NCBI GenBank assembly: GCA_903887005.1
Contig: CAISOH010000431.1
Span: forward strand, 1-33,609
Direction of reading: 5' to 3'
DNA length: 33,609 nucleotides
From: an uncultured Bacteroidota bacterium
GTDB lineage: Bacteria; Bacteroidota; Bacteroidia; Chitinophagales; Chitinophagaceae
Below are positions 30-24,000 of the stretch, one piece after another (the first letter of the stretch is position 1; every line of letters starts with the position of its first letter). A program made the translations under genes and the position numbers. The notes under the pieces were generated by a model. That model did no database searches and was not told the DNA's origin. It saw only the letters and a program-made list of their open reading frames with translations.

Positions 30-455
30 TTAAATTTGATTTATAGCTCCATTTTGTTCAACATCATGAGGAGGCGTATTTTTATGAAAAACAAAATTTC
101 TCATTAGCAAGAATGACATTACCGCTACTGGTAATGTAACAATACCAGCCGCAATATAGGTATTTGATATACCTATATGATTTAAGAGTTTTATTGATAT
201 AATCTGGGTGGATATTATCAATAAATAAACCGAAAAAAAACGAAAGACCCTTGAATAATCTTTAGAATTAAAAACAAGCCTGCCATAAGTATTAAAATTG
301 AATATCACTGCAATTACATTGGATAAAATAACAGATAAATATAAATCCTTAACCATATATATTATGACTGCAAACATTAAATATCCAAAAACAGTATTTA
401 ATCCTCCTACCAACAAAAATTTTACAAAAGGTTTTTTTAAAATTTTCTTTATCAT
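30..455 (-). CDS. GtrA-like membrane protein (lipid-linked sugar translocation)
   Basis: A 141-residue protein with four predicted membrane helices (about residues 11-33, 38-56, 72-90 and 98-117) and the family motif NFNTYGRLVF after helix 2. GtrA/GtcA proteins are thought to help move polyprenyl-phosphate-linked sugars across the inner membrane so that a GT-C enzyme can use them outside the cytoplasm. I start it at the ATG at 455; a GTG two codons upstream (461) is possible. It is the last gene of the minus-strand operon, about 70 bp after a GtrB-type GT2, which is the classic partner pairing. Family assignment is confident; the sugar carried is unknown. Confidence 0.85.
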   Translation of the reverse strand: MIKKILKKPFVKFLLVGGLNTVFGYLMFAVIIYMVKDLYLSVILSNVIAVIFNFNTYGRLVFNSKDYSRVFRFFSVYLLIISTQIISIKLLNHIGISNTYIAAGIVTLPVAVMSFLLMRNFVFHKNTPPHDVEQNGAINQI

Positions 456-526
456 ACCCACTATTGCTTATTTGATATACTGCTTTTACAAACTTTTTAT
501 CTTATAAAAATCGCTATGTAAAAATT

Positions 527-1480
527 TCAATCTTGAAAATTAATTCTTTCTTTTTCAATTACCAATGGCCTCTTCCTTACCTGGGTATGTATTGCGCCGA
601 TATATTCCCCTATTATCCCGATAAAAAATAACTGAACAGAGGAGAAAAAAAACATTCCGATGACCATGGGTGCTGCTCCAACCTGAAATCTATTCCAGAA
701 AACAAGTTTGTATATAAGATACCCTAAAGCCACTAAAAAGCTCACCATCGCGGAAAAAAAACCCACAAATACCGACAACCTCAAAGGCAGTTTAGAATGG
801 TTTGTAAACCCAAGCATTGCCATATCATACAAAGTGAAGAAATTATTCTTTGTTTTCCCGGCAGCTCTCTTTGGCTGGATATATTCAATTTCATAACGAT
901 CAAATCCAAGTTCAGTAATCAACCCTCTGAAATAAGGATATGGATCATCTAATGTTCTGATAACAGAAATAAATTTTTGATCATACAAACCAAAACCCGT
1001 AAAATTTTTGACTGGTTGCTCGCCGCTATCCGACATCTTCCGGAGCAAGTTGTAAAATGTTCCCCTAATAGCAAACATTATAGGATTCTCTTTGCTTTTT
1101 TTCTTTACTCCAATGACAATTTTATAACCTTCTTCCCACTTATTCAAAAACTGCTCAATCATTTCAGGCGGATCCTGAAAATCTGCAACAAGTGAAATAA
1201 CAGCATCTCCTTTGCATTGAATTATACCATAAAATGGGGAGCGTATATGTCCATAATTCCGGGCGTTAACAATCACTTTCACATGCTTATCTGTATGAAT
1301 AATCCTTTTCAGTATTTCAACAGTTTTATCAGAAGAACAGTTATCAATAAAAACATGCTCATAAGTATATTGAGGTAATTTTTCAAATACAATAGCTACA
1401 GCTTTAACCAAAGCTTCTACATTTTCCTCTTCATTATAACAAGCCGTAATTACCGAGATGTGTTTTTTGCTGACTTCCAT
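527..1480 (-). CDS. GtrB/CsbB-like GT2 (polyprenyl-phosphate sugar transferase)
   Basis: A 317-residue GT-A fold family 2 glycosyltransferase. The N-terminus has the nucleotide-binding strand ISVITACYNEEENV (8-21). The catalytic acidic motif is VADFQDPPE (98-106). Two membrane helices follow near 233-258 and 270-294, the second continuing into GEYIGAIHTQVRKRP as in GtrB, CsbB and DPM1-like enzymes. These load a sugar from an NDP donor onto polyprenyl phosphate on the cytoplasmic face. I chose the ATG at 1480, which lies immediately beyond the stop of the upstream cyclase gene and begins just before the conserved domain. A start at 1513 would overlap that gene by 32 bp. Pairing with GtrA directly downstream supports lipid-linked sugar transfer. 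Substrate unknown. Confidence 0.88.
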   Translation of the reverse strand: MEVSKKHISVITACYNEEENVEALVKAVAIVFEKLPQYTYEHVFIDNCSSDKTVEILKRIIHTDKHVKVIVNARNYGHIRSPFYGIIQCKGDAVISLVADFQDPPEMIEQFLNKWEEGYKIVIGVKKKSKENPIMFAIRGTFYNLLRKMSDSGEQPVKNFTGFGLYDQKFISVIRTLDDPYPYFRGLITELGFDRYEIEYIQPKRAAGKTKNNFFTLYDMAMLGFTNHSKLPLRLSVFVGFFSAMVSFLVALGYLIYKLVFWNRFQVGAAPMVIGMFFFSSVQLFFIGIIGEYIGAIHTQVRKRPLVIEKERINFQD

Positions 1481-1481
1481 A

Positions 1482-2558
1482 CTACTGACAGTATTTTTTC
1501 TTAAAAAAATCAAGTGCCTTCACTGCCTCTTCTTCCGGAAGATCCGTGATCTTAAAAAAATCAAACGCTCCATTCATCATTATCAGTGGTAACCCGGATC
1601 CAAGCCGTTTTTTATCCTGCTTCATAGCATTAATAATAATGTTATTCTCAACCTGGTTTAATTGTTTGTAGTCAATTTTTAATATTTCAAAGAACAAGGT
1701 ATTTAATTTTATGTTTAGTTCCTCCGAAATCTCATTTCTCTGAAGCGCTATTTCATTTGCCAGGATCATCCCTATTACAATAGCCTGTCCGTGAGGGATT
1801 TTATAACGGGTAGCCGTTTCAATTGCATGGCCGAATTCATGTCCATAATTGAGCATATTTCTTTTGCCCTGGTCAAATTCATCTCCATCCATGTATGTCC
1901 ACTTAATATCAAGAGACTCCTTAGTGATTTTCAATAAAGTAGCATTGTCTCTTTTGTGAATAAGCGGTAATTGACTGATCAAAAAATCAAGTTTTTCGTT
2001 CCTGCCCATTACATGCAATTTCGCTACTTCACCCATGCCGCTGTAAAAATCCTCATCATTCAATGTATCAGTGAACTGTGTACAGATATGTATTTGGTGG
2101 GGAGGGTAAAAGGTACCCAATATATTCTTGTATGACTTATAATTCAATGAAGTTTTACTACCCATACAACTATCCGCCTGGGCTAATAATGTTGTTGGAA
2201 GGTAGGTCCAGTTCAAACCTCTGTAAAATGTACTTGATACAAATCCGCTAATATCCTGTGTAATACCCCCGCCAATAGAGATAATACTGGTTTTTTTCGT
2301 AGGTTTTAATGAAATTATTTTATCAAATACTTTCTCTGAGGCAGCCAATGTCTTATTCTCTTCAATAGCTTCCAGTAAAATCAGGTTTTCTTTTCCTTCT
2401 AATGTCAAAAAATACTGCCGGTATAGCCTGAAAACATTTTCATCAATAATAAATACAGCATTTTGCTGTTCCAACATCGATTTTAAGAATGAAAAATCTT
2501 TTTCAAAATGAATAGTATAGTTGTGGATACTTGATGTTATTTGTTTTATTTCACTCAT
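1482..2558 (-). CDS. 3-dehydroquinate synthase-like sugar phosphate cyclase
   Basis: A 358-residue member of the DHQ synthase / sugar-phosphate cyclase superfamily (NAD- and metal-dependent cyclisation of a phosphorylated ketose acid or ketose). Visible motifs: GGGITQD (96-102, NAD site), D129, K135, K144-N145, zinc-type ligands E177, H240 and H256, and active-site K180, K219, R233, N237 and H244. All align with the residues of canonical DHQ synthase, so the protein should be active. However, the loop between K135 and K144 reads TSLNYKSY, where canonical AroB enzymes have a PLG before the K-N pair. In this loop and in KNILGTFYPP it is as close to the EEVS-type cyclases as I remember them. It overlaps the SDR gene by 4 bp in a glycan operon with no other shikimate genes, so a secondary cyclitol-forming role is inferred. 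A housekeeping AroB cannot be excluded. Confidence 0.8.
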   Translation of the reverse strand: MSEIKQITSSIHNYTIHFEKDFSFLKSMLEQQNAVFIIDENVFRLYRQYFLTLEGKENLILLEAIEENKTLAASEKVFDKIISLKPTKKTSIISIGGGITQDISGFVSSTFYRGLNWTYLPTTLLAQADSCMGSKTSLNYKSYKNILGTFYPPHQIHICTQFTDTLNDEDFYSGMGEVAKLHVMGRNEKLDFLISQLPLIHKRDNATLLKITKESLDIKWTYMDGDEFDQGKRNMLNYGHEFGHAIETATRYKIPHGQAIVIGMILANEIALQRNEISEELNIKLNTLFFEILKIDYKQLNQVENNIIINAMKQDKKRLGSGLPLIMMNGAFDFFKITDLPEEEAVKALDFFKKKYCQ

Positions 2559-3220
2559 AATATACTATATCCTCCATCAGCAAAGATGGTTTGGCCTGTT
2601 ACAAAAGTATTTTTATCAGAAGCAAGAAAATAAATAAGTTCGGCAATCTCCTCAGGTTCTGCCAAACGATGGACAGGCAGATTATTTTTAATGATTTCTA
2701 TTTGTTCTGGTGTATTATTTATTTTTGTAAGCTCTGTATTCACATACCCTGGAGCAACAGCATTGACGAGCACATTATACGGAGCAAATTCTAAGGCTGC
2801 AGTTCTTGTAAAAGCATTAATTGCAGATTTGGATGATGCGTATATAGATCTGCCTGGTTTGGCAACTCCACTCCATATAGAACTGATATTAACAATCCGG
2901 CCATATCCTTGTTCTTTCATTTTGGGCGCCAGCAAATTAGTTAATATTACAGGAGCCCAGAAATTCACTTCCATTAATTTCCTTCCATCTTCAAAATTAA
3001 TACTGCCTATATTTCCTAAAGGATTAACGCCTGCATTGTTTATCAAAACATGAACAGGCTTTATTATTCCATGTATATATTTTATAATGCTTTCTTCAGA
3101 GCTAAGATCCATATCGCTATGGGAAGGCGCCAATACTTCATAACCCTGTTCAATAAATTTTCGAACACATGCTTTTCCAATACCTCTGCTCGTACCGGTT
3201 ATCAATACAGTTTTATTCAT
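2555..3220 (-). CDS. SDR-family NAD(P)-dependent oxidoreductase
   Basis: A 221-residue classical short-chain dehydrogenase/reductase. It shows the cofactor motif TGTSRGIG near the N-terminus, NNAG in the middle, ISS on the catalytic-serine strand and the YASSK catalytic Tyr-Lys pair, with a C-terminal FVTGQTIFADGG as in FabG-like enzymes. It probably reduces or oxidises a keto group on an intermediate of the sugar pathway. I start it at ATG 3220, overlapping the aldolase stop by 8 bp. A GTG at 3229 is in frame but adds only three residues outside the fold. The stop overlaps the next gene's start by 4 bp (ATGA), so translational coupling with the cyclase is likely. Substrate cannot be read from the sequence. 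Confidence 0.87.
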   Translation of the reverse strand: MNKTVLITGTSRGIGKACVRKFIEQGYEVLAPSHSDMDLSSEESIIKYIHGIIKPVHVLINNAGVNPLGNIGSINFEDGRKLMEVNFWAPVILTNLLAPKMKEQGYGRIVNISSIWSGVAKPGRSIYASSKSAINAFTRTAALEFAPYNVLVNAVAPGYVNTELTKINNTPEQIEIIKNNLPVHRLAEPEEIAELIYFLASDKNTFVTGQTIFADGGYSIL

Positions 3221-4037
3221 ACTTCCCACCCGCTTGCTCGATTAATTTATCATAGCGACGCTGCAGCATTTCTATACGGCTCTCATCTTCTTTATAGATC
3301 ATTCCGTAGAAATTACGCTTGTTTTTAAGCCACATCAGCTCAAAGCCTACTGCTTTCAGGATACCCTTATCTCCACCATTCGCCATTGTAGCTTTTTTAG
3401 CATTAAACAATACTTTACGGGTTTCAAATTTATCAAGAATGCCTGAAGTTAAATTATCAAAGAAAGGTAAAGACTCAGCTGAAACCCCACCACCAATCAC
3501 ACATTCCATATCTTTATTAAATTTCTTTGCTTTCCCTAAAACCTCATCGCAAATCATTCGAATAGGGTCAGAATTAATATCATTTCTAGTCAGGCCCATT
3601 GAACCAGTCATATCCACACGCCCTACAACTACTCCTTTCAACTCATGGATATTTGGCAACAACAACATGTCATCAAAATTCTTAACTGTAGAAATTGTTT
3701 CCACATTAATTAAGAAATCTACTTCCTTTCTTTCTTCTTCCGGGAAGGCCTGGTTTGCGCAAGACAGGAACTTTTTAAGAGCGTATGGTGTTTCTATCAT
3801 TGGCCCTACTATACGTGTTACACCGATAGATCGGGAATCATACATGTCCTTCAGGGCTTCGCAACCACCGATTTTAATCGTCAGGTCCAGCCCTGCTTTT
3901 GTAACCACTTCTTTCAAACGAAGGGCTTCTTCCAGTCGGGTTCCCTCTGCTTCAAATTCAGCCTTAATACCAACTGCATAATGATTTTCTTTCAAATCTT
4001 TCAGCTGGTCAACCATTTTTCTTTCTAAAGAATTCAT
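3213..4037 (-). CDS. HpcH/HpaI-type class II aldolase family protein
   Basis: A 274-residue protein of the HpcH/HpaI aldolase / citrate lyase beta superfamily (TIM barrel, divalent metal, pyruvate or oxaloacetate enolate chemistry). The two metal ligands are recognisable: E113 in LINVETIS and D142 in VGRVDMTGSMG, matching the VET...GPADLS pattern of HpaI. R75 in GVTRIVGPM probably corresponds to the catalytic Arg region. The C-terminal third (about 200-274) is charged and helical. Such enzymes join or split a 2-keto acid and an aldehyde, so the protein could build or cut a ulosonic-type chain. The setting in a glycan operon, coupled to an SDR and 48 bp after a ThDP enzyme, argues for synthesis over catabolism. 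Family confident; reaction inferred. Confidence 0.8.
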   Translation of the reverse strand: MNSLERKMVDQLKDLKENHYAVGIKAEFEAEGTRLEEALRLKEVVTKAGLDLTIKIGGCEALKDMYDSRSIGVTRIVGPMIETPYALKKFLSCANQAFPEEERKEVDFLINVETISTVKNFDDMLLLPNIHELKGVVVGRVDMTGSMGLTRNDINSDPIRMICDEVLGKAKKFNKDMECVIGGGVSAESLPFFDNLTSGILDKFETRKVLFNAKKATMANGGDKGILKAVGFELMWLKNKRNFYGMIYKEDESRIEMLQRRYDKLIEQAGGKYE

Positions 4038-4085
4038 ATATCGGGTTTTAAATTCAATTTAACAGAACAAAAGTAATTAAAAAAA

Positions 4086-5885
4086 TCAACCATTATATTC
4101 TTTAATAAACAAATTGGAGCGAAACTCCTCCCTATCCAGAAATGGCGCCAAATCTTCCAATGGAGCAGAAACCATGCGGCCATCATCAAGCTTTTTGGAG
4201 GATACTTTTGGAAAGAACTTATAGTTTTCCGTAAGCATTACCTCGCAAATAACAGGCCCTTGCTCATTTAGAAATTGCATAATATTTTCTTTCAGATTAT
4301 TATGAGATATTATCCTGCAGGTTTTAAATCCATAAGTCTCACCCAATTTAATAATATTCGGAAAACTAACCCCTGATCCGGGATCACTTCCTACCCGATG
4401 CCCTCCAAAAAAGCCATCCTGTGTTTGTTTAATGGAAATATATCCGTCATTATTCAGATAAATGATTTTTATGGGCATTTGATGATGTATTACCGTTTGC
4501 AGCTCCTGAATATTCATTTGCAGGCTGCCATCTCCTGCTATGCAAATAACATCTTTGAACCCATTGGCGACACAGGCCCCTATAGATGCAGGAAGGTCAT
4601 ATCCCATGGAAGCGCAACCACTATTCCAGAATATACGAAACTTACTTTTTACCGGCATTGCCTGGAAAGGCGCTACACAAGCAGTTCCGTCCCCTGCCAC
4701 ACAAATACCACCATCAGGAATACAATGACCTAACTCTTCCATAAATACATATGGGTGCACACCATGTTCAGCATGATGATATTCAGGCAAAACAGAGGGA
4801 TATTTTTCCTTTCGGTTATGGCACCATTCCAACCAATCTGTGTGCGTATCCTGAATAGTATGACCCAGTTTTTCACTTAATTCCAGGATAAATTCTTTTG
4901 CATCAGCGCAAACAGCTAAATCCGGTATTACAGTTGGTTTCTGCAATTCAGCACTGTCTATATCAACAATAATTTTGTATGCTTCACGGGCGAAAAATTC
5001 CCAGTTATAACTTACCTGCCTGATATTATTTCGTGTACCGAGGGTTATCAATACATCCGCGTTTTGCACTGTGAAGTTACCTGCCCTTGTTCCAAGAGTA
5101 CCAAAACGTCCGATATAATTTTTATGGTCTTCGCAAATGAGGTCCATCCCGTTAAACGTTGTAACTACAGGTATGTTACAATGGCTTAATAATTCATCAA
5201 ATTCTTTTAGCGCTCCTGAAATGCGGATACCATGGCCTGCAAGAATTACCGGCCGTTTTGCTCCTTTGATCTTTTCTGATACGGTACTTATTATCTGTTG
5301 AAGTTCAGAATTCCGATTTAAAGCAGGGGCATCGTAACCTTTCATATCCGTCTCATCAACTAATGCTCCCTGTATGTTCATTGGAATATCCAACCATACA
5401 GGCCCCGGGCGCCCTGTCATTGCTTCGTGGATTGCCTTTTCAAGATAATACCTGATCTCGTTTGCTTCAGTTACCATGTGAGCAAACTTTGTAATGGGCG
5501 TTACAATACGTACTATATCCACTTCCTGGTCGCCTAATTGCCTTAGTCCTTTAATCCCGGGGCAGGCATGTATCGTCGTTTCAAATTTTACCTGGCCAGA
5601 CAAATACAATACAGGCACAGAATCAGTCCATTGGCCTAAAACACCATTCAATGTATTTAACCCACCAGGGCCGGTAGTAACATTTACAACAGCCAGCCTG
5701 TTAGCAATTCTTGCATAACCTTCTGCTGCAATTGCACAAGCCTGCTCATGATGATTATTGATGTATTTTAATTCACGGCCTAAAGAATCATTCAGGTGCA
5801 TAGCCCCCCCGCCGGTTACCATAAAAATATGCTCAACACCGTATTCTTTTAATTTCTTTGCGATATAATCCGTTACTTTTATCAT
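4086..5885 (-). CDS. Thiamine-diphosphate enzyme, acetolactate synthase-like
   Basis: A 599-residue three-domain ThDP enzyme of the acetolactate synthase / benzoylformate decarboxylase class. The N-terminal PYR domain carries the catalytic glutamate E47 in NNHHEQACAIAAEGYAR. A central domain (about 190-340) has GHGIRISGA. The C-terminal PP domain has the cofactor motif starting at GDG 451-453 and ending in YLNND near 477-480. It presumably makes or breaks a C-C bond by two-carbon transfer onto a sugar-derived ketone, or acts on a cyclic diketone as IolD does. It is not an obvious IlvB: no IlvN or ilv genes are nearby, and it overlaps an epimerase stop by 1 bp. Length is normal. FAD binding cannot be judged. 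Confidence 0.83.
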   Translation of the reverse strand: MIKVTDYIAKKLKEYGVEHIFMVTGGGAMHLNDSLGRELKYINNHHEQACAIAAEGYARIANRLAVVNVTTGPGGLNTLNGVLGQWTDSVPVLYLSGQVKFETTIHACPGIKGLRQLGDQEVDIVRIVTPITKFAHMVTEANEIRYYLEKAIHEAMTGRPGPVWLDIPMNIQGALVDETDMKGYDAPALNRNSELQQIISTVSEKIKGAKRPVILAGHGIRISGALKEFDELLSHCNIPVVTTFNGMDLICEDHKNYIGRFGTLGTRAGNFTVQNADVLITLGTRNNIRQVSYNWEFFAREAYKIIVDIDSAELQKPTVIPDLAVCADAKEFILELSEKLGHTIQDTHTDWLEWCHNRKEKYPSVLPEYHHAEHGVHPYVFMEELGHCIPDGGICVAGDGTACVAPFQAMPVKSKFRIFWNSGCASMGYDLPASIGACVANGFKDVICIAGDGSLQMNIQELQTVIHHQMPIKIIYLNNDGYISIKQTQDGFFGGHRVGSDPGSGVSFPNIIKLGETYGFKTCRIISHNNLKENIMQFLNEQGPVICEVMLTENYKFFPKVSSKKLDDGRMVSAPLEDLAPFLDREEFRSNLFIKEYNG

Positions 5886-6769
5886 TATTTATCTGTCAAT
5901 AGTAATTGTTTATTAAGATTCATTTTATTTCCATCATACCAATTGTACAACTCCGTTATTGCTGTTTCAATGGGTGTGAAATTTAGATTTTTCATTTCAC
6001 TTTTCAATAAAGAATTATCACCGCTATACTCTATACCATACCCTTCTTTTGATACATTTATATCCATTTGTTTCCCGGAAACTCTTTTTACAATTCTTGC
6101 AATTTCCAATAATTCAATAGAATTATCAGGAGTAATATTAAAAGCCTTTTCTTTAGGATCATGTTCAATAAAATATTCTAATACAGGCATTAGATCCTTG
6201 ATATAGAGATAATCAAACTTCCTGTTCTGTTGTAAAGATACAGGTAAGTCAAAAATCGTTTTACAAATTGCATTTGAAATAAAACGGATTGCATAGTCTT
6301 CATATTTTCCAAAGATCCCGAAAATCCGGAAATCATATACGGCATCCAAATTAGGCAATATTTTTCCGAAAATGTATTTAGTAAATCCATGCTCATCAGC
6401 CGGAATATAGGTTCCGAAATAAGACTCCTTCATTTTAGGCACATAATGACGCATATCATATATAGCGCCACTTCCCATATTTAATAGCTTACCCCAACGA
6501 TCCCGGTACTTCAGCAGATTAAACATCATCCGTGAATTCGTATAAAGCAAACCAGTAGTATCTCCTGCATTTCTATGACCTGGCTTTATTGCTGAATGAA
6601 TGACTACTTCGAAAGAATGCTGAATGAAATATTGTTTCACACTTTCATCATCACTGCAATCAAGTTCAGCCCGTGTAGGAGCAAAAAGTTCGTATTTATC
6701 TTTCAGATAAGACAATAGAATATTTTTACCTATAAATCCCGTACCTCCTGTAACTAATATTTTCTTCAT
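5885..6769 (-). CDS. NAD-dependent epimerase/dehydratase with altered catalytic Tyr
   Basis: A 294-residue extended SDR. The Rossmann motif GGTGFIG is at residues 8-14, and a GSGAIYD strand is near 100-106. In the YxxxK region, where relatives usually read EYGFSKY, this protein reads EHGFTKY: H127 replaces the expected Tyr while K131 is kept. Y132 with K136 also fits YxxxK, but one turn later. The gene may therefore have shifted or altered catalysis, or the protein may be a reductase or binding homologue. It is the first gene of the minus-strand operon that runs to GtrA, with a promoter about 100-130 bp upstream. Probably modifies an NDP-sugar for the locus. Confidence 0.82.
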   Translation of the reverse strand: MKKILVTGGTGFIGKNILLSYLKDKYELFAPTRAELDCSDDESVKQYFIQHSFEVVIHSAIKPGHRNAGDTTGLLYTNSRMMFNLLKYRDRWGKLLNMGSGAIYDMRHYVPKMKESYFGTYIPADEHGFTKYIFGKILPNLDAVYDFRIFGIFGKYEDYAIRFISNAICKTIFDLPVSLQQNRKFDYLYIKDLMPVLEYFIEHDPKEKAFNITPDNSIELLEIARIVKRVSGKQMDINVSKEGYGIEYSGDNSLLKSEMKNLNFTPIETAITELYNWYDGNKMNLNKQLLLTDK

Positions 6770-7089
6770 AACTGAACTTCATTGAGAAAAACAGATTAAG
6801 CATTAAAACTTAGTACGCCAATACCCATTTCTAATGCTATTTATAAGACTGGAAATATTGCAAGTACAAATTTATAGAAAATATAAAATATAAGCAATCC
6901 TGTCTTCTAAATTTTTATACCCAATTTTTGAAAAGTAACTTACATAACCCTTGATAATTGGGAGAAAAGTGCATGGCTACCACTCTAAGGATCAAGAGTT
7001 CTGTTTATACTATAGAATTGCATTTGCCTAAAAATTTCAATTAAAAAACTCCAAATTTTATTACTTTTAGGAACAAATTGTTTTTATAC
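6770..7089. other. Divergent intergenic region
   Basis: About 320 bp between the minus-strand epimerase and the plus-strand methyltransferase. It contains a good Bacteroidota promoter on the minus strand (6867-6897) and only a weak candidate on the plus strand, TACTTTTA at 7062-7069 with no clear -33 box, which might serve the methyltransferase. The rest is AT-rich, and I see no RNA gene or repeat in it. Confidence 0.5.
6867..6897 (-). promoter_or_regulatory. Promoter of epimerase-to-GtrA operon
   Basis: On the minus strand TTG (6895-6897), a 20-bp spacer and TAAATTTG (6867-6874) match the Bacteroidota housekeeping consensus (TTTG - about 19 bp - TAnnTTTG). The predicted 5' leader is about 90 nt before the ATG at 6769. 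Confidence 0.6.
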
Positions 7090-7830
7090 ATGTCAGAAAA
7101 ATTCAGGCCAGTCTCAAATACCCCACCAACTTCATTTATAGGTAAATTAAAATTCTATGGGAGAATGTTATTGGATCTGCAGATCCTTACTATTTACCGG
7201 GATGTAAAAAGAGCATTACCCACTTACAAGGGCAATATTCTTGATATTGGCTGCGGGCAATCTCCTTATAACTTTCTTCTGAATAAATCTCAGACCCAAT
7301 ATTTTGGCATTGACATAGTTGATGCTGAAAAATTTGACTACAGAAATTCCAATATTACACCATTCAATGGCGAAGATATCCCTTTTGAAAATGACAAATT
7401 TGATGCGATTATTTGCACTGAAGTAATGGAACATGTGGCAAATTATCAAAAACTCACAGACGAAATGTACAGGGTATTAAAAACAGGCGGGCAAGGTATT
7501 GTCACAATTCCGTGGAGTGCGCGTTATCATTATATCCCCTGGGATTATTTCCGCTACACACCCAGCAGTTTAAAAACTATTTTTTCTAAATTTTCATCAG
7601 CACAAATAATACCAAGAGGAACAGATATTGCAGCTATCAGCTCAAAAATAATTGTTCTTTTTTTTAGAAATCTTATCCCTTCGCAAGCCTGGAAATGGCT
7701 TTTTGTTCCTATCTGGATAGCATTATCTCCGATTTTGATGGCGGTTGTACTAATAGCGCATTTAGCTTTAATCTTTAATTTAGGAGCAGAAGAAGACCCA
7801 TTAGGTTATACCATTCTGATAAAAAAATAA
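7090..7830 (+). CDS. Class I SAM-dependent methyltransferase with C-terminal membrane helix
   Basis: A 246-residue protein. SAM motif I is NILDIGCGQSP near residues 49-59, and the post-motif EVMEHV fits the Methyltransf_11 type. A hydrophobic stretch near 200-228 (FVPIWIALSPILMAVVLIAH) probably anchors it to the inner membrane. I start it at ATG 7090; a TTG at 7078 is in frame but unsupported. It is the only plus-strand gene inside the glycan locus and is convergent with the next methyltransferase, 20 bp from its stop. It likely methylates a sugar or lipid-linked intermediate. Acceptor unknown. Confidence 0.8.
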   Translation: MSEKFRPVSNTPPTSFIGKLKFYGRMLLDLQILTIYRDVKRALPTYKGNILDIGCGQSPYNFLLNKSQTQYFGIDIVDAEKFDYRNSNITPFNGEDIPFENDKFDAIICTEVMEHVANYQKLTDEMYRVLKTGGQGIVTIPWSARYHYIPWDYFRYTPSSLKTIFSKFSSAQIIPRGTDIAAISSKIIVLFFRNLIPSQAWKWLFVPIWIALSPILMAVVLIAHLALIFNLGAEEDPLGYTILIKK

Positions 7831-7850
7831 TCCGCTCTAAAGAGGAAAGT

Positions 7851-8765
7851 TTACTTTTCAAGTATTATTCCCATATTGCCTGCTTTGAAGGGTAATACTT
7901 TGTTGTATATACCCAAAACTTTAAACAGGCTTACCCATAATTTCTTTACTGGTAAAGGCGCCATTCTTATCCAATAGCTGAAAGGATATGCTGTAATGAT
8001 ATCAAAAACAGAAACGACTTTAAATCCCGCTTTTTCACATAGCATCGGAAGATTTTCTTTATTAAACAGGTAAATATGCTCCACATCAATGATAGGAGAT
8101 TTTTCCCCGAATATCCTGGCTTGCAAGGCATTGGAATTATGCATGATCATATAAACGTGCCCTCCGGGCTTAACGTTGTCATACATATTTTTTACCATCC
8201 CTAATGGATCGCTAAGATGATCAAGCGTTTGAAAACAGGTGATTAAATCAAAATAATTATCTGGATATAAGCCAGGCTTATAGAACCCGGTATGAATATT
8301 ATCGCGAATATCACTTCTTGCTATTGCTTTAGGTTCTTCGCCGGGTTCACAACCATAAACTTCTTTATAACCATTATCTTTTAATACTTCTAAAAAAAAG
8401 CCGGTACTGCAGCCAATATCCAAAGCTTTATCAGTTTTCCAACCATTAACATATTTAGCTATCGGCCTCCAGTAATCTTTTTTAATAAATTCCAGCATTT
8501 CGTTGAAATGTATTTCACTACCTTTATAAAGTTCGTTTAGTGATTCATCATCAAGTATATTCCTGGAAAAGATGAGTCCTGTTTTGAGGCATTTTACCAT
8601 TTCATAATGAGCATGCCTGGTTGTTTTACGCGCTTCAAATGCCGCGGCGTCAAGCTCTTCATCTTTGAAACTTTTCTTATAGAGCACCGGGTGCCCTGCG
8701 GCATCAGTACTATCGCAAAACAAACACTCTTTGCGTATGTAATTATATTTGCCTGTTGATCTCAT
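7851..8765 (-). CDS. Class I SAM-dependent methyltransferase (sugar C/O-methyltransferase-like)
   Basis: A 304-residue protein. The N-terminal CLFC pair (C14, C17), followed by hydrophobic KCLKTGLIF, resembles the zinc-ribbon-like entry of sugar methyltransferases. The SAM-binding motif ALDIGCSTGFFLEVL follows in the middle, then CFQTLDHLSDP and KPGGHVYMIMHN. This arrangement recalls NDP-sugar C-methyltransferases, but only one CxxC pair is obvious, so zinc binding is uncertain. Its ATG overlaps the stop of the epimerase-GT2 fusion gene by 4 bp (ATGA), indicating one operon and a role on the same sugar. Family confident, substrate inferred. Confidence 0.8.
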   Translation of the reverse strand: MRSTGKYNYIRKECLFCDSTDAAGHPVLYKKSFKDEELDAAAFEARKTTRHAHYEMVKCLKTGLIFSRNILDDESLNELYKGSEIHFNEMLEFIKKDYWRPIAKYVNGWKTDKALDIGCSTGFFLEVLKDNGYKEVYGCEPGEEPKAIARSDIRDNIHTGFYKPGLYPDNYFDLITCFQTLDHLSDPLGMVKNMYDNVKPGGHVYMIMHNSNALQARIFGEKSPIIDVEHIYLFNKENLPMLCEKAGFKVVSVFDIITAYPFSYWIRMAPLPVKKLWVSLFKVLGIYNKVLPFKAGNMGIILEK

Positions 8766-10756
8766 TTTATTGTTTGGTTGTCCTTTTTAAAATTTTCAAT
8801 TTCTGTAGCAGTGTTAAGAAGCTTACCTCTGTAAATAACAGATCTTCTTATGAATTTTGGCCTGGCTTTACTTTCTTCAAATACCTTGGACAAGTATTCA
8901 CCCAATATGGAAACAGCCAACAACTGGATACCTCCAAAAAACAATATTAAAACAATAACTGTTGTAGTGCCATGCGGAACATCAGGGTACAATATTTTTG
9001 CGATTATCTGAGCAATTATTGCAAGAAAAGAAACACCCGTTAATATAAATCCTAAATAGCTCAATAATTCCAATGGCACAAAACTGAAAGAGAAAATTGC
9101 TTTCTTTGCCCAGCCAATATTTCTTCTCCAGTTGTTGGTACTCTTACCAAACATTCTTTCCGGCCTTATGTAATCAACTCCTATTTGCTTAAACCCAACC
9201 CATGCCCGGAGGCCCCTTAAAAACACTTCCGTTTCCGGCAAATTGTTCAACTCTTTTACCACCTTTCTATCCATCATAGAAAAATCCCCTGCATCAACCG
9301 GGATTTTAATATAGGACATTGTACTGAATATTCGGTAAAAACCCTTATATACAAGGTTCATAAAGAAAGACATTTCTCTTTTCACACGTTTGCCATAAAC
9401 CACATCATACCCTTCAATCCATTTTTTATAAAATGCAGGTATTATTTCGGGCGGGTCCTGAAGATCGCCGTCCATAAGAACGACTGCATCACCGGTTGAA
9501 ATTTCCATACCGCTTAAAAAAGCTGATTGTGAACCAAAATTCCTGGAATGAGTTATTCCTATTACATTATTGTCTTTAGCTGCAATTTGTGCTATGACCT
9601 CTTCTGAATTGTCCGGAGAGCAATCATTAACAAAGATTATTTCATACCTGAGCTTTGTTTCATTGAACATTTTTACCAGCCGCTCGTACATTACCGGTAT
9701 AGCCTCCCCATCTTTATAACAAGCTATAATAGCGCTAATCTTTGCATTTAGTTTAGGTTTACTAAAGGAGGGCAAAATAGTACTTGTATAATTAACTTGT
9801 TCATGCCAGTTATATGTGCTGCGCAAGCCCTCTTTCAGCGAGGTTTTAGCTTCCCAGCATAGTTCTCTGTTCGTGTTTGAGGGATCGCCATACCAATCTT
9901 TCAGATCCCATTTGCGGTTTTGCATATTACCCCAAACAGGCTCTTCCTTTATTTTGAATTCATTCCTCACAAGGTTAACCAACTGTTCCAAAGTGGTTTT
10001 CTCCCCGGTACAAATATTGAATGACTTCCCTTGTATTTCAGGATTCATATTAACTGCTGCGTCAACAAAGGCTTCTACCGCATCAGTAATATAAACAAAA
10101 TCACGGCTTATTTCTTTCTCCACTAAATTCGGGTAAGTGCCGGCCCTGGCTTTTTCAATCATTACAGGAATTAATCTGTCAGGCTCTTCCCAGGAACCAT
10201 ACACAGAATACAATCTCAGGTTAAGTGCAGGAACTTGTTTGTATTTTGCGTAATAATTTATTATATAAGACGCTGAAACTTTAGATGCGGCATAATGGCT
10301 ATTAGGTTCGAGAGCGTCGCCTTCATGCGGAGCTGCGGAGTTTGTTCCATATTCCGAACTGCTTCCTGCATGAACATACGCTTTTATACCGGCACTGCAT
10401 TCTAAAATATTTACTGTACCGTTCACATTTGTTTCATATATCAACCTTACATCGCTTTGTTTGCTGTAAGCGCCATAAGCAGCAAGATTGAATATAGTTA
10501 ACGGTTTATATTTATCGAAAATATTTCTTACAGATATTAATGAGGTGATGTCGCAATGAATAATATTTTTAGAAGGAATATCAAGCAGCTTTAAACGCCA
10601 TGCATTATTTGCATCGTGTGTTATTGCATAACAATCATTTCGAACCGAAAAAATATCCTTTATGATATTTGCGCCAATAAATCCTGTAGCCCCAAAAACG
10701 AATATAGGGCCTTCCAGCTTTTTGATTTTCTTCTGAAGCTCTTCGTAATTTATCAT
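8762..10756 (-). CDS. Fusion: NAD-dependent epimerase/dehydratase + polyprenyl-phosphate GT2
   Basis: A 664-residue two-enzyme protein in one uninterrupted frame. Residues 1 to about 325 are an extended SDR: G22xxG25xxG28, GSSSEYG (131-137), and YAASK with Y155 and K159 all intact. After a short linker (about 325-338) a GT2 domain begins at AKISAIIACYKDGEA, with the acidic motif LMDGDLQDPPE (427-437). Two C-terminal membrane helices lie at about 557-582 and 590-618, ending with GEYLSKVFEESKARPKF as in GtrB/ArnC-like enzymes. The likely role is making an NDP-sugar and passing it straight to polyprenyl phosphate. It starts 6 bp after the transketolase C stop and overlaps the methyltransferase by 4 bp. 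The fusion is seen directly; coupling of activities is inferred. Confidence 0.87.
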   Translation of the reverse strand: MINYEELQKKIKKLEGPIFVFGATGFIGANIIKDIFSVRNDCYAITHDANNAWRLKLLDIPSKNIIHCDITSLISVRNIFDKYKPLTIFNLAAYGAYSKQSDVRLIYETNVNGTVNILECSAGIKAYVHAGSSSEYGTNSAAPHEGDALEPNSHYAASKVSASYIINYYAKYKQVPALNLRLYSVYGSWEEPDRLIPVMIEKARAGTYPNLVEKEISRDFVYITDAVEAFVDAAVNMNPEIQGKSFNICTGEKTTLEQLVNLVRNEFKIKEEPVWGNMQNRKWDLKDWYGDPSNTNRELCWEAKTSLKEGLRSTYNWHEQVNYTSTILPSFSKPKLNAKISAIIACYKDGEAIPVMYERLVKMFNETKLRYEIIFVNDCSPDNSEEVIAQIAAKDNNVIGITHSRNFGSQSAFLSGMEISTGDAVVLMDGDLQDPPEIIPAFYKKWIEGYDVVYGKRVKREMSFFMNLVYKGFYRIFSTMSYIKIPVDAGDFSMMDRKVVKELNNLPETEVFLRGLRAWVGFKQIGVDYIRPERMFGKSTNNWRRNIGWAKKAIFSFSFVPLELLSYLGFILTGVSFLAIIAQIIAKILYPDVPHGTTTVIVLILFFGGIQLLAVSILGEYLSKVFEESKARPKFIRRSVIYRGKLLNTATEIENFKKDNQTIK

Positions 10757-10762
10757 GAAAAT

Positions 10763-11674
10763 TTAAAAGTAAGAATTTATTATTCGCGATATATTTTCTT
10801 CATCCAATCCGCTAATCTGCTGGTGGTAACTTTGGCTGCCATACAATCCGGTAGGATAACCTTCGGCATGTAAGCTAATAAATTTATTTACAGGTAACGA
10901 ATTTTCATTAACCAAAAGTGAAACAGCGCTTCCAAGTCCGCCTATAGAAATATGTTCCTCAACAGTAAGTACCTTTTGGGTCCTGGTAATACTTGCTGTA
11001 ATGCCGTCCGGCAAACCCTTAAGTGGCATCTTATTTACAATAAATAATTCCACTTTATTTTTATATGTATGCTCTTTCAATGCAGCTACCACGTTATTTG
11101 CTACAGGGCTTTGAGCAATAATAGTTAATTGTGCTGCAGCATTTGCAGAAGTTGCCGCACCAAAATTTTGAAGCGCAAGATAATCAGGCATGTTTTTACC
11201 AAGGCCAAGACGAAAATAAGCAGGTGCCCTTTGAGCAAACATCTCATCAAGGCAGGCCTTCATATCTTCTATAAAAGCAGGCACAAAACATCTCATATTG
11301 GGCAATCCGCTCAGCGTACCGATATCTTCAATAGCATGATGGGAAGACCCCATAATACCATAGCCATAACCGCCCCCGTTACCTATTAAATATACTGGCA
11401 TATTATGAAAACATACGTCATTCCTTATTTGTTCCAGGCAGCGATATACAATAAAGGGGGCTATGCTGTAACAAATAACACGGTATCCCTGTGAAGCCAT
11501 CCCTGCAGCAATTCCTACCATATTCTGCTCAGCAACCCCTGCATTAATAAAACGGTCTCCCAATTTTAATCCAAGGTTTTCCAATGCATTATATCCAAGG
11601 TCTCCAGTTACAAATACAATATCATCAGATTCCTCTATTATTTGCTCTATATGTGCCGAAAAATGTTTTCTCAT
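10763..11674 (-). CDS. Transketolase, C-terminal subunit (split enzyme)
   Basis: A 303-residue protein corresponding to the PYR and C-terminal domains of transketolase. Visible motifs: FVTGDLG (21-27), INAGVAEQNMVGIAAG with the ThDP-activating glutamate at E49, and GSSHHAIEDIG for the substrate-binding loop. The C-terminal part (about 180-303) is the transketolase C domain. It pairs with the N-terminal subunit encoded 21 bp upstream. Split transketolases occur often in polysaccharide and antibiotic clusters, where they transfer two-carbon units or supply ketose phosphates. The location suggests the same here, separate from the pentose phosphate pathway. Confidence 0.86.
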   Translation of the reverse strand: MRKHFSAHIEQIIEESDDIVFVTGDLGYNALENLGLKLGDRFINAGVAEQNMVGIAAGMASQGYRVICYSIAPFIVYRCLEQIRNDVCFHNMPVYLIGNGGGYGYGIMGSSHHAIEDIGTLSGLPNMRCFVPAFIEDMKACLDEMFAQRAPAYFRLGLGKNMPDYLALQNFGAATSANAAAQLTIIAQSPVANNVVAALKEHTYKNKVELFIVNKMPLKGLPDGITASITRTQKVLTVEEHISIGGLGSAVSLLVNENSLPVNKFISLHAEGYPTGLYGSQSYHQQISGLDEENISRIINSYF

Positions 11675-11695
11675 CGTATTTATTGCGGATAGAAT

Positions 11696-12484
11696 CTAAA
11701 CGTCGTAATCAATCTCAATTTTATTAACAGCCTCTTTGTATTGCACTTCATTCATTGGTAAATAATGCCATTCCATCTTGTTTTCCATATAGGCGATACC
11801 TTTCCCTTTTACCGTGTTTGCAATAATCATTTTAGGCTTGCCGTTTTTATTTTCTATCATATTCTTTTTTGCCTCCAGCATAGCGCTTATGCTATGGCCA
11901 TCCACTTCAATGACGTCAAATCCTATTGCTTCCCATACTTTTGCCGAAGCCGTATCCCCTAAAATATCAGCCGTATTACCAAATCCCTGCAGACGGTTTT
12001 TATCAATAAACACCAAAAGATTATCTAATTTATTGGCAACTGCAAAATGGCCTCCCTCCCACGATGTACCTTCATTGGTTTCACCATCGCTCATGAGCAC
12101 ATAGCTGATTCCGGTCGCCGATTTAAGCTTTTTAGCTTTAGCAATACCTACAGCAAGCGGAAGCCCGTGCCCCAGTGAGCCTGTAGCAAATGGTATTGCC
12201 TTATACTTTAATGGAGCCGGGTGCGCAGGTAAAGTAGTGTCGTTCTTATAAAAAGTATTCATTACCTCATCCGGAATTTCTCCTGTTTCATTCAGTATTG
12301 TGTACAATGCGGTAGCGGCATGACCTTTTGAAAGAATAAAGGTATCTTCCGTTTCTTTAAATTTCAGAATGCTGATCATAATATCTATGCAGCTAAGGGA
12401 ACATCCGATATGCCCCGAATTAGCCTTATGATGCAATTCCAGAATCTTTATTCTTAACTTGCCTTGCAGCTTTTTATGTTCCAT
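11696..12484 (-). CDS. Transketolase, N-terminal (ThDP-binding) subunit
   Basis: A 262-residue PP-domain subunit. Motifs: ANSGHIGCSLSCIDI (21-35), ILSKGHAATALY, TGSLGHGLPLAVGIA, and the ThDP/Mg motif beginning MSDGETNEG (131-139) and reaching VFIDKNRLQG. I start it at ATG 12484. A GTG at 12502 is also possible, and the in-frame TTG at 12514 lies inside a long inverted repeat. It is the first gene of the upper operon. Its promoter and an 18-bp perfect hairpin lie directly upstream. Works as a heteromer with the C-terminal subunit. Confidence 0.86.
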   Translation of the reverse strand: MEHKKLQGKLRIKILELHHKANSGHIGCSLSCIDIMISILKFKETEDTFILSKGHAATALYTILNETGEIPDEVMNTFYKNDTTLPAHPAPLKYKAIPFATGSLGHGLPLAVGIAKAKKLKSATGISYVLMSDGETNEGTSWEGGHFAVANKLDNLLVFIDKNRLQGFGNTADILGDTASAKVWEAIGFDVIEVDGHSISAMLEAKKNMIENKNGKPKMIIANTVKGKGIAYMENKMEWHYLPMNEVQYKEAVNKIEIDYDV

Positions 12485-12502
12485 ATCCGGGTAATCAGAC
12501 AC

Positions 12503-12544
12503 CTTTTTAAACAAAAATTCAATATAGAATTTTTGTTTAAAAAG
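12503..12544. repeat. 18-bp perfect inverted repeat upstream of the transketolase operon
   Basis: CTTTTTAAACAAAAATTC (12503-12520), a 6-nt spacer AATATA and its exact reverse complement (12527-12544). It lies between the minus-strand -7 box and the start codon, so the minus-strand transcript should begin at or just before it and fold into an 18-bp stem ending at the GTG/ATG region. It could be an operator dyad or a 5'-UTR stem. Confidence 0.85.
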
Positions 12545-12599: not shown

Positions 12600-12630
12600 T
12601 TGTTTGATTACTGCTTCTTTGTATTTTAGC
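12600..12630 (+). promoter_or_regulatory. Candidate promoter of the YfhO-family gene
   Basis: TTG (12600-12602), 19 bp, then TATTTTAG followed by C (12622-12629), seven of eight to TAnnTTTG. This places the transcript start near 12636 and favours the GTG at 12652 as start codon over the TTG at 12604, which lies inside the promoter. Confidence 0.45.
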
Positions 12631-12651
12631 AAAAAACAAAAATCAATTATC

Positions 12652-21054: not shown

Positions 21055-24000
21055 TTACCTTACTAATGTTAAATCTCCTGTTTGTTCTATGGTATTTCCA
21101 CCGCAATCATATTTTAAGTAGTAGAAGTACACGCCTATATCCTGTGGTACACCATTGTAATTACCATCCCATTGCATATTGCTGTTTGTGGATTCAAATA
21201 CTGTTTGTCCCCAGCGGTTAGCAATACGGAAAATGTGGAACCTGTGATAACCCACATAAATAGGACGGAAGACATCATTCTTATGATCACCGTTTGGAGT
21301 AAAAGCATTCGGGAAGTTTACGGAGCAGCATGAGCTCGGGTCTATTTCCTGGCTGGTACTTGCAGGGCATCCGAAAGGATCCGTCACTAAAAGTGAGATG
21401 ATGCTCTTCGATTGTTCTACCTTGCCCCAGGTAACACCTTTATTGATATTCTGGAAGAAGTGCGCGGGCGACCATACATAGGAATAATTATAGTCGTTTG
21501 TATTAGCTATGAACATTATACTGTCTTCCAGGCATAAGGGGCCATTCTTGGTTGTGTATTTAAAGGATGCGTCCGGAATGGTATGCACAAAGATCGTATC
21601 AACAGTAGGCGGCGCTTTACAACCTTCATCTGTTGCCGAAAATACTTCTATAACATGCCTGCCGCTATCGTTCCAGCTTATGCTGAATGGCCCTCCGCTG
21701 TTTTCATTATGCGCTATGATATTTAGAGCGGTTGTGGTCCCCATCGGAACATGGTCTATCATCCATGTAAATACGGACGCATTATCAGATTTGTTACTCA
21801 ATGCCAGGCCAACAGTATCTCCAACACAAACATCAGCTTTGGAAAAGGCAGTAGCTGTTGGGTGCGGGATAATGGGTATCCGGACGAATGTATCAAAGGA
21901 ACACATGCCATTGTAATCACTAACAAACAGCTTTACATAATTATTTTGCGTTACAGTATCGAACCGCACATATATCATAGAATCACTAGCAAGCGAAACT
22001 CCTATACCGGTATTTATTTTAGAACTATAAGATTCACCATTGGGAATCGTCCATACATATGCCGGATCAACCAGCGAAGGACCGGTATAGGATAGCCATA
22101 TGGAATCGTACTGGCAAACCAATGGTCTTTCCGGTGTGATATAAAAATTGGGTTTGTACAACACAGTAACTTTTATCGGCGTCCTGTCACTGACACAATG
22201 ATGTATTGTCGTTTGATCAACATACCAGGTGAAACTACCCGGAATGTCAGTTGAAGGTACAGGAACAGGAACGATTTGCAAACCACCTGTATTGGCCATA
22301 TACCATTTAAGGGTATCGTTGCCTGATGCAGTAATTACAGCGGATGGTGTAAACTGGCAATAAGTAGTGTCAGCAGTAACCGGAGGGGCCGGCTTTGGAT
22401 TAACAATAACAGAATCCATAGTACTGTCACTCACACAACCCAATACCGTTTGCGTTACAAAATAAAAGGTCTTACCAGGTATTGATGTACCGGGAGTAGG
22501 TGCAATTGGCGTGCCCACAGGGGAGCCGTCATACCATAATAGGTCGGTACCTGTAGCAACTAACTGCCTGGGTGTAAAAAATTGACAATACTCCTGCGGT
22601 ATTGCAGGCGGTGGCGGAGGTTTAGGAGGATCCTTTAATACTACAGGGCCTACTACATTATATGGGCATAATGTTCCTATAACAGTAATAAGATCGTATG
22701 TGCCTGCCGACAATCCTGTCAAAACTACTTTTCCTGCGCCGGAAGCCAGCAGAGTAACGGTTTGGGGAACGCCATTAAATCTATAACTGATTTTAAACGA
22801 GGTCAATGGGATTAACCCTCTCAGAGTAATAGATCCATCTTTGGCATTACAATGTGTAGGGTCTGAGAATCCGTCAATAGCAATTATTGTAGGCGGTGGC
22901 TCTGTAATGGTTACAGCTGTTTTACTTGTGCATCCTGTTTTATCGCTTATACTAACAGTATAAGTGCCGGCAGCCAGGCCGGTAGCGGCGGCTGTTATTT
23001 GAACAGGTATGCTGTTCCAGCTATAAGTAAACGGCGGTACCCCACTTGTCGGCAATGCGTTAGCCGTGCCGTCCTTATACCCGTAACAGGAAACATTTGT
23101 TGAGGAGACAAGAGGGATCACGCCTATAGCAGTTATCCGTATGGTATCGGTAAGGGTGCATCCTGCCGCATCAGTTACCGTATATATATACTTATTAAGG
23201 CCTAAAGCAGGAGTAACAGTGGTCGGATCGCATGTGCCGCAACTTATGGAGCCCGGACCACCAGACCATGCATAAGTTAATGGTAAAGCAATATCTGTAG
23301 CCCTTGTAGTTAATGATACACTAGAACCTATACAAACTGTTGTGTCATGACTTGGTTTTACTGCCAGCATTGTGGGCCTGACCGTTGTATAAAGGGTATC
23401 CGGGCAGCCATATCCGGGATATGGGGTTAAAATGACTGCGTAAGTGGTAGGAACCCCGGGCGTAGGAATTGTAATAGTATCGGCAGAACCATATAAAATG
23501 GTAAAGGTTGACGAATCATACCAGTCGTACTTAGCGTAACCGGGAGGCGCTGTAAGGATTGTATTAGATGAATTACATGAAACATTGGTAATTGCAAAAA
23601 GCCCGCAGGCCATATCTAAATAGCCATATCCGAAATGCCCGCCAAATCCACAGTCTGCAGCAATAAAATCAATGGTAACTGTCTTGCCCCCATATGCGGT
23701 TAAGTTCATACTTCCTAAGGACCAGGGTTTATAATACACACTAAAGCCTGTTTTTGAAAGCTTAAATCCCGGTAAAGATGATGATGTTATATAATTGAAA
23801 TGGGCGCAGGCAATAGGAAGGCCGGTGACAGAATCATAAGCGCTTACTTCAAACCTTGGCTGTCCGCTGGCAGGGTGCCCGCCATCTTCCAGAACTACTG
23901 CATAGTGATAATAAATGCTATAACTAACTCCAGGAGGAACATGTATTTGATAACGCGCCATTTCAGCGCAATAATTAATCGTATCATGGCCCAATTTGCA

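Follow-up and report, generated by a model that had tools for sequence, protein, structure and literature searches.

A Conserved Gene Block around an AroB-Related Protein in a Chitinophagaceae Genome, Probably for Synthesis of a C4-Branched Sugar

Gene Content of the Locus

The window analyzed here is a stretch of 33,609 nucleotides that makes up the entire contig CAISOH010000431.1 (C431) in the 5.96-Mb genome of an uncultured bacterium of the Chitinophagaceae, phylum Bacteroidota (assembly GCA_903887005.1, G000). Its first part, positions 30-12514, is a run of genes that lie on the minus strand throughout except for one methyltransferase gene, MT1 (Table 1). We focus on five genes of this run, EPI-ALS-ALD-SDR-CYC (1482-6769), which overlap or are separated from their neighbors by at most 48 bases. 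They encode an extended short-chain dehydrogenase (EPI), a thiamine diphosphate (ThDP) carboligase similar to YerE (ALS), a divergent pyruvate-type aldolase (ALD), a short-chain dehydrogenase (SDR), and an AroB-related protein of the TIGR04425 family (CYC). EPI is presumed to reduce the ketone of a branched keto-sugar nucleotide, and the adjacent GT2b, a family 2 glycosyltransferase (GT2), is presumed to load the finished sugar onto a lipid carrier.

All gene classes named in a preliminary description of this DNA, which was made from the sequence alone, were found as intact open reading frames (ORFs), and domain scans agree with their assignment. The domains of the two epimerases and two GT2s listed there are present, but one epimerase and one GT2 form a single fusion protein, EPI2-GT2a. 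The end given there for the transketolase N-terminal half (TKN), position 12484, matches an internal ATG, and a TTG start places this boundary at 12514.

Table 1. Genes in the first part of the window with the domain evidence for each
Gene product	Position	Strand	Evidence and remarks
GtrA-type small membrane protein (flippase/DPM-like transmembrane domain)	30-461	-	PF04138, 45.9 bits; near contig end
GT2b, polyprenyl-phosphate sugar transferase-like GT2	527-1513	-	PF00535, 83.6 bits
CYC, AroB-related protein	1482-2558	-	TIGR04425, 401.9 bits (cut-off 400)
SDR, short-chain dehydrogenase	2555-3229	-	PF13561, 160.2 bits
ALD, divergent HpcH/HpaI-fold pyruvate-type aldolase	3213-4037	-	PF03328, 27.9 bits (cut-off 25)
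ALS, YerE-like ThDP carboligase	4086-5885	-	three TPP domains
EPI, extended SDR	5885-6769	-	PF01370, 75.5 bits
MT1, S-adenosylmethionine (SAM) methyltransferase	7078-7830	+	PF08241
MT2, SAM methyltransferase	7851-8765	-	PF13489, 85.2 bits
EPI2-GT2a, epimerase fused to polyprenyl-phosphate GT2	8762-10756	-	PF01370 at 18-249, PF00535 at 341-502
TKC, transketolase C-terminal half	10763-11674	-	PF02779/PF02780
TKN, transketolase N-terminal half	11696-12514	-	PF00456, 105.8 bits; TTG start
YfhO-type large membrane protein, divergently transcribed	12604-15114	+	PF09586, 210.4 bits

Conservation of the Core Block

A scan of GTDB genomes yielded 128 relatives of ALD, and the best 80, which are 61-90% identical to the ALD of the window, were taken as the set of ALD loci. 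According to their record titles, these loci come from 16 named phyla, with 11 loci unassigned. Within the order of the window, ALD occurs in 2 of 248 genomes, its own genome included. The neighboring genes were mapped by tblastn in all 80 loci, and a long-flank subset comprises the 51 loci in which the sequence reaches 5.5 kb or more upstream and 2.5 kb or more downstream.

The four genes ALS, ALD, SDR, and CYC lie together inside 8 kb in 34 of the 80 loci, belonging to 13 named phyla, and the arrangement is thus far beyond chance. The gene order in these 34 loci is ALS-ALD-SDR-CYC (20 loci), ALD-SDR-CYC-ALS (13), or ALS-SDR-CYC-ALD (1). ALS is present in 73/80 loci, and SDR and CYC are either both present (40/80) or both absent (40/80) and are never split; an SDR-CYC pair of any kind was observed in 14 of the 16 named phyla. 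Among the 51 long-flank loci, EPI was found in 44, RfbF in 39, RfbG in 37, and RfbH, assigned by homology only, in 42. A GT2b-like gene accompanies 39/80 loci (33 of those with long flanks) and a GtrA-like gene 15/80. The conserved core is EPI-ALS-ALD-SDR-CYC, and it is either ancient or widely spread by transfer. Conservation of the block as a unit in relatives had been named beforehand as one of the points on which the preliminary proposal would stand or fall, and in this respect the proposal stands.

The ALD family in the wider sense is also found on plasmids, in relatives that are 44% (two records) and 39% identical to the ALD of the window. The 39% relative, from Ilyobacter, has neighbors that look catabolic; hence, membership of this wider family does not imply a role in glycan synthesis. 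In one of the 44% records (L118, unannotated), matches to RfbF and RfbG adjoin ALD.

Exchange of SDR-CYC with Phosphatases Next to the Aldolase

The nearest typed gene within 250 bp of the end of ALD, on either strand, is SDR in 38 of the 80 loci, a HAD phosphatase in 26 (HADa in 21 and HADb in 5), ALS in 6, GT2b in 3, and another gene or none in 7. HADa (PF13419 type) and HADb (HAD-IIA) are distinct families, judged from a scan of one representative of each. Loci were considered readable if the sequence covered 2.5 kb or more downstream of ALD; among these 66 loci, we found CYC only in 32, HAD only in 23, both in 2 (L009 and L057), and neither in 9. The corresponding exclusion of CYC and HAD has a Fisher p of 1.9e-8 when relatedness is ignored. 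On the ALD tree (87 rows), the rows with CYC and with HAD require 13 changes, and the sister rows L034 and L035 carry CYC and HAD, respectively. This exchange in the slot after ALD suggests that SDR-CYC and HAD have equivalent functions, acting on an intermediate that carries a phosphate.

In two loci, a small ORF of 137-140 amino acids with a DxDG-type motif of HAD-like appearance directly follows ALD (L012:10849-11262 and L013:10828-11250), and it perhaps encodes a third type of phosphatase. The Pfam scan gave a sub-threshold phosphatase match in L012 and none in L013, and a single-sequence model of the L013 protein has a predicted local distance difference test (pLDDT) score of 38.6. In the above counts, L013 is classified as having neither gene, and L012 as having HAD for its separate HADa gene.

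CYC Is Distinct from AroB and Retains Its Active Site

CYC passes the cut-off of TIGR04425 and stays below that of the aroB profile TIGR01357 (253.6 bits; cut-off 305). The true AroB of the genome is encoded on another contig, C297 (326.2 bits against the same cut-off). In a quick tree with some long branches, 50 CYC rows are separated from 8 AroB-type rows with an SH-aLRT support of 99. Thus, CYC is neither the only 3-dehydroquinate synthase-like protein of the genome nor a member of the AroB group; the two together would, according to the preliminary description, have been fatal to its proposal.

We further compared 14 active-site positions, with the numbering and roles of the Aspergillus AroB, in a residue set of 50 CYC rows (L182 was left out) and 7 AroB-type rows (4 annotated as aroB, 1 passing TIGR01357, and 2 unannotated). 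CYC of the window has the AroB-type residue at all 14 positions. Across the CYC rows, 12 positions are invariant (50/50), K356 is kept in 49 with one gap, and K197 is kept in 46; the other four, all from the second genomic context described below, have H at K197. The invariant positions include K250 and R264, which we take to be the carboxylate ligands of AroB. In contrast, two Streptomyces AroB relatives (L165 and L166) have A at R264, and two relatives taken as amino-dehydroquinate types (L150 and L164) have R at K197. Residues C131 and W117 are signatures of CYC, each present in 50/50 of its rows. The altered carboxylate pocket that we take to mark cyclases of the 2-epi-5-epi-valiolone synthase (EEVS) type was not seen in these rows. 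An EEVS-type route from a ketose phosphate, raised in the preliminary description, is therefore disfavored.

A Second Genomic Context of SDR-CYC

To avoid anchoring on ALD, we searched for TIGR04425 with strict E-value limits of 1e-85 to 1e-95. Matches were obtained in 11 of the 395 genomes from the window's phylum (its own genome included), in 7 of 292 from that of G686, and in 2 of 251 from that of G685 (G685 included). A single genome was found in each of two further samples: G684 itself among 396 genomes of its phylum (locus L057, titled Actinomycetota) and G1124 among 289 genomes of the class of G683 (L080, titled Alphaproteobacteria). Neither of these two samples led to known producers of such sugars, among them M. 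marinum and R. palustris. CYC-anchored neighborhoods were analyzed for 18 loci, 10 from the phylum of the window, 7 from that of G686, and 1 from that of G685; two of them repeat L034 and L051.

SDR adjoins CYC in all 18 loci (10/10 in the phylum of the window and 8/8 in the other two), and both ALD and ALS are present in 12. One further locus, L137, has a rfbFGHI-ALS-SDR-CYC cluster with no ALD in the stretch read. There, a NeuB-family gene (L137:10566-11666; PF03102, 121.9 bits) follows CYC, possibly as a non-homologous replacement of ALD.

In five loci (L130, L131, L134, L135, and L182), SDR and CYC are accompanied by SIS, Gfo/Idh/MocA, and 2-hydroxyacid dehydrogenase genes, and neither ALS nor ALD is present in the stretches read. 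A canonical HpcH/HpaI aldolase was found in four of them (not in L130) and a CMP-synthetase-type gene also in four (not in L131), with a weak match of 55 bits in L130. This second context looks like an undescribed route to an ulosonic acid.

Altogether, 17 of the 18 CYC-anchored loci adjoin a gene of a family making 2-keto-3-deoxy acids. The enzymes presumed to act next, by ThDP-dependent use of a donor or by CMP activation, need an intact keto acid. For this reason, and in view of the exchange with phosphatases, we assume that CYC acts ahead of ALS and consider ring closure onto C2 doubtful.

Relatives of ALS and ALD

Among 149 solved relatives of ALS, the best match is 8rph, which we take to be JanthE; it scores 371 bits, against 268 for the next one, and the match is nearly full length. 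The sequence of 8rph shows a CDG motif, and ALS has the HHEQA glutamate and a GDG...N motif. In PMC12247030, the CDG motif is ascribed to JanthE, pyruvate users are included in this family of enzymes, and a preference for hydroxylated longer keto acids is reported for ErwE and MMAR_2332. The chain of caryophyllose, as described in PMC7821131, is a C6 acyl unit whose chemical synthesis starts from D-digitoxose and which hence ends in a methyl group.

ALD has a phosphoenolpyruvate/pyruvate barrel with metal-binding E and D residues. Searched alone against the PDB with phmmer, it gave nothing credible, only two chance matches with E-values of 0.36-0.42. Over the part that carries R70 and H45, presumably the catalytic residues of HpcH/HpaI, ALD has no reliable sequence alignment.

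Probable Supply of the Sugar Nucleotide

The preliminary description had stated that no nucleotidyltransferase is encoded in the window. This is correct, but the same genome encodes one elsewhere: contig C408 carries, in a row, RfbF (356.9 bits; cut-off 300.25), RfbG (430.0 bits; cut-off 278.45), and an RmlC-like gene (143.3 bits, under its cut-off of 155.75). The same three genes were recognized by ORF comparison in three further ALD genomes (L113, L114, and L116). For L115, the ORF list lacked two of the three genes, and RfbG and RfbF were placed by separate searches.

In 11 of 12 ALD genomes, a CDP-glucose dehydratase scores above the cut-off, compared with 30 of 78 further genomes from the window's family (Fisher p 9e-4). 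This comparison ignores relatedness; one of the 12 ALD genomes is from a different family, and ten come without a stated affiliation. RfbH is over its cut-off in 3 of these 12 genomes. In G000, the best RfbH match has 300.8 bits versus the cut-off of 423, and the sugar therefore probably keeps its 3-hydroxyl group.

The Separable Transketolase Unit and Other Neighboring Genes

Both transketolase halves are absent from all 51 long-flank ALD loci. At the thresholds used, the transketolase pair, the EPI2-GT2a fusion, and MT2 (74% identical) were each found in 1/80 ALD loci, namely L010. In another ALD genome, G254, the transketolase halves, an epimerase-GT2 gene, and an MT1 copy (63% identical) stand together on contig C23 (L163), and RfbG and RfbH of its aldolase cluster (L014) are on the separate contig C19. 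EPI2-GT2a adjoins the transketolase pair in both L010 and L163. A dedicated TKC was found in 3 of 12 genomes examined. From the separate location in G254 and this limited occurrence, we conclude that two units meet in the window, one consisting of EPI-ALS-ALD-SDR-CYC-GT2b-GtrA and the other of TKN-TKC-EPI2/GT2a-MT. Transketolase was accordingly rejected as a member of the core, and the preliminary view that the transketolase pair, EPI2-GT2a, and MT2 belong to one pathway block with it is not supported.

The transketolase unit (8762-12514 in the window; L163:3622-8028) has RfbF nearby in L163, and it possibly serves a second branched sugar.

Homologs of the YfhO-type protein encoded next to the transketolase unit (34-71% identical) adjoin the cluster in L010, L011, L012, L013, and L016, and this protein may be a GT-C-like transferase of the finished sugar. 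Adjoining its gene is an ORF for an 859-amino-acid membrane-protein-like product (15240-17819) with zero Pfam matches. Further along, the window encodes a 1072-amino-acid surface protein of the type IX secretion system type (21055-24273) with SprB repeat, Ig-like, and CHU_C domains.

Proposed Pathway and Alternatives

The core block probably encodes a pathway to a C4-branched sugar of the yersiniose (YerE), erwiniose, or caryophyllose type. The reconstruction builds on gene presence, conservation, residue retention, and the slot exchange, from which we infer every substrate and step: (i) RfbF and RfbG, encoded elsewhere in the genome with the RmlC-like gene alongside, would give CDP-4-keto-6-deoxyglucose; (ii) ALD would join pyruvate to a short phosphorylated aldose, for which erythrose 4-phosphate is the simplest candidate, and so form a terminally phosphorylated 2-keto-3-deoxy acid that is an analog or epimer of 3-deoxy-D-arabino-heptulosonate 7-phosphate (DAHP); (iii) loss of the phosphate would follow, catalyzed by CYC and SDR here and by a HAD phosphatase in many of the related loci; (iv) ALS would decarboxylate the keto acid and transfer the resulting C6 acyl group to the CDP sugar at its C4 ketone; (v) EPI would reduce the new ketone; and (vi) GT2b would move the sugar to polyprenyl phosphate, with GtrA and the YfhO-like protein providing for export and transfer.

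For the third step, CYC could use AroB chemistry, i.e., oxidation, beta-elimination of the phosphate, reduction, and opening of the ring. The resulting enol would then most likely be protonated rather than closed onto C2, and SDR would reduce the methyl ketone so formed to a 3,7-dideoxy-2-ulosonic acid with a CHOH-CH3 end. Since the carboxylate ligands are kept and the next enzymes need an intact keto acid, we favor such reductive removal of the phosphate, leading to a caryophyllose-type chain with a terminal methyl, over formation of a carbocycle. The route with a non-cyclizing CYC is nevertheless put forward tentatively. More tentative still is the generalization that CYC and SDR form a nucleotide-free deoxygenating pair, a non-cyclizing phospholyase of the AroB fold and a ketoreductase yielding a CHOH-CH3 end, that is used in many phyla to make donors for ThDP-dependent branching and, together with a CMP-synthetase, terminal-deoxy ulosonic acids.

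Several observations weigh against this reconstruction. The cyclization catalyzed by AroB is facile, even non-enzymatic, and no residue that would force CYC to suppress it was found, only signatures such as C131 and W117. The slot exchange alone does not separate cyclization from simple removal of the phosphate. CYC and HAD occur together in L009, L057, and L179, with neither in 9/66 readable loci, and a phylogenetically paired test on supported branches, underpowered with its 6 pairs, gave about 4.2 pairs in the expected direction and 0.1 in the opposite one (p 0.125). EPI is rarer with CYC: among loci that have flanking sequence on either side of ALD, it is present in 20 of the 28 with CYC only and in 22 of the 23 with HAD only; five of the eight CYC-only loci that lack it carry another extended SDR. 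On the side of the sugar nucleotide, CDP-glucose dehydratase is also found in 30/78 other genomes of the family, and no RfbH match in G000 exceeds the cut-off.

The version closest to the preliminary description, in which ring closure takes place on the sugar itself, is unlikely in our opinion. Here, ALS would act first and attach the keto acid, still phosphorylated, to the CDP sugar. CYC would then cyclize the branched ketone, a DAHP analog with the sugar replacing the carboxylate, to a cyclohexane on C4, and SDR would reduce the ring ketone. Ring closure is the known outcome of the family, the AroB catalytic set of CYC is complete, HAD and CYC would be alternatives in this scheme too, and the somewhat rarer occurrence of EPI with CYC agrees with it. 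However, K250 and R264 are invariant in 50/50 rows although the substrate would have no free carboxylate there, whereas two other AroB relatives (L165 and L166) have lost R264. The bulky CDP sugar would also need to fit a DAHP-sized site, and the second-context loci, with HpcH aldolase in 4/5, a CMP-synthetase-type gene in 4/5, and no ALS in the stretch read, do not match such a role. Thus, of the branched or carbocyclic sugar suggested earlier, the branched one follows naturally from the YerE-like ThDP enzyme and the CDP-glucose genes, and the carbocyclic one is possible and not our first choice.

It is improbable that ALD, CYC, and SDR instead make a free quinate-like acid (a reduced epimer of dehydroquinate) that decorates the glycan, with ALS using pyruvate for a yersiniose-type sugar. 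The complete active site of CYC would suit such a product, as would the pyruvate users in the ALS family noted in PMC12247030; the exchange with HAD phosphatases and the 6/80 loci in which ALS directly follows ALD would then be left unexplained, and no acid-activating enzyme was seen among those recurrent neighbors that were annotated. Still less credence is given to the absence of any single pathway, with the genes serving different residues in an island that gathers unrelated sugar genes. Surface-glycan islands are known to be mosaic, and this does hold for the transketolase unit; for the core, it is contradicted by the 34 loci, spread over 13 named phyla, that hold ALS, ALD, SDR, and CYC together, mostly in one of two orders (20 and 13 loci), by the SDR-CYC pair that is never split in 80 loci, and by ALS in 73/80. 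The least probable is an EEVS-type route to a cyclitol, along the lines suggested earlier, in which transketolase would provide the ketose phosphate, here sedoheptulose 7-phosphate. Although the transketolase halves share the gene run in the window and L010, they occur in 1/80 loci and are separable in G254, and CYC of the window is of the AroB type at all 14 positions. A carbocycle formed by EEVS was therefore set aside.

If the proposed branched-sugar pathway is true, it would give a role to an uncharacterized and widely shared AroB-like family, in which AroB chemistry would serve a different end, the removal of phosphate and oxygen from the chain terminus. It would account for a possible bacterial origin of the keto-acid chains in caryophyllose-type sugars, and it would provide a genome-based rule predicting which of the two ends, CH3 or CH2OH, a C4-branched sugar has.

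Comparison with Known Systems

No characterization of the core block was found in the literature searched, nor did that literature yield donor synthesis for caryophyllose-type sugars or a function for TIGR04425, the family named "AroB-related putative sugar phosphate phospholyase (cyclizing)" whose cut-off is passed by CYC. With AroB (3-dehydroquinate synthase), CYC shares the fold family and all 14 catalytic positions, but it belongs to a separate clade, is under the aroB cut-off, and coexists with the genome's own AroB. ALD, in turn, shares the barrel fold and the metal-binding E and D with class II pyruvate aldolases of the HpcH/HpaI family, but it is only 9-14% identical to them in the structural alignments listed and forms a tight family of its own.

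Two-gene transketolases are also known for miharamycin and amipurimycin, where they are proposed to branch a keto sugar (PMC12247030); in contrast, the transketolase of the window belongs to a separable unit. For the bradyrhizose O-antigen, the source states that the synthesis genes are unknown, and no shared cyclase or ThDP gene was seen named there.

The core block is best classified as a variant of the YerE-type route to C4-branched sugars in which an unusual arm would make the donor. The YerE pathway produces yersiniose A from CDP-3,6-dideoxy-4-keto-glucose and pyruvate and, as described in PMC12247030, has in common with the present system a YerE-like ThDP enzyme, genes for CDP-glucose synthesis and its dehydratase, and an extended SDR. 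The system described here differs in having a dedicated aldolase and either SDR-CYC or a phosphatase beside the ThDP enzyme, and in having no RfbH over the cut-off in G000. A parallel for the donor is provided by ErwE (erwiniose) and MMAR_2332 (caryophyllose), ThDP enzymes for which the same source reports a preference for longer, hydroxylated keto acids. The length and the end of the caryophyllose chain, as given in PMC7821131, fit condensation of pyruvate with erythrose 4-phosphate followed by reductive loss of the phosphate.

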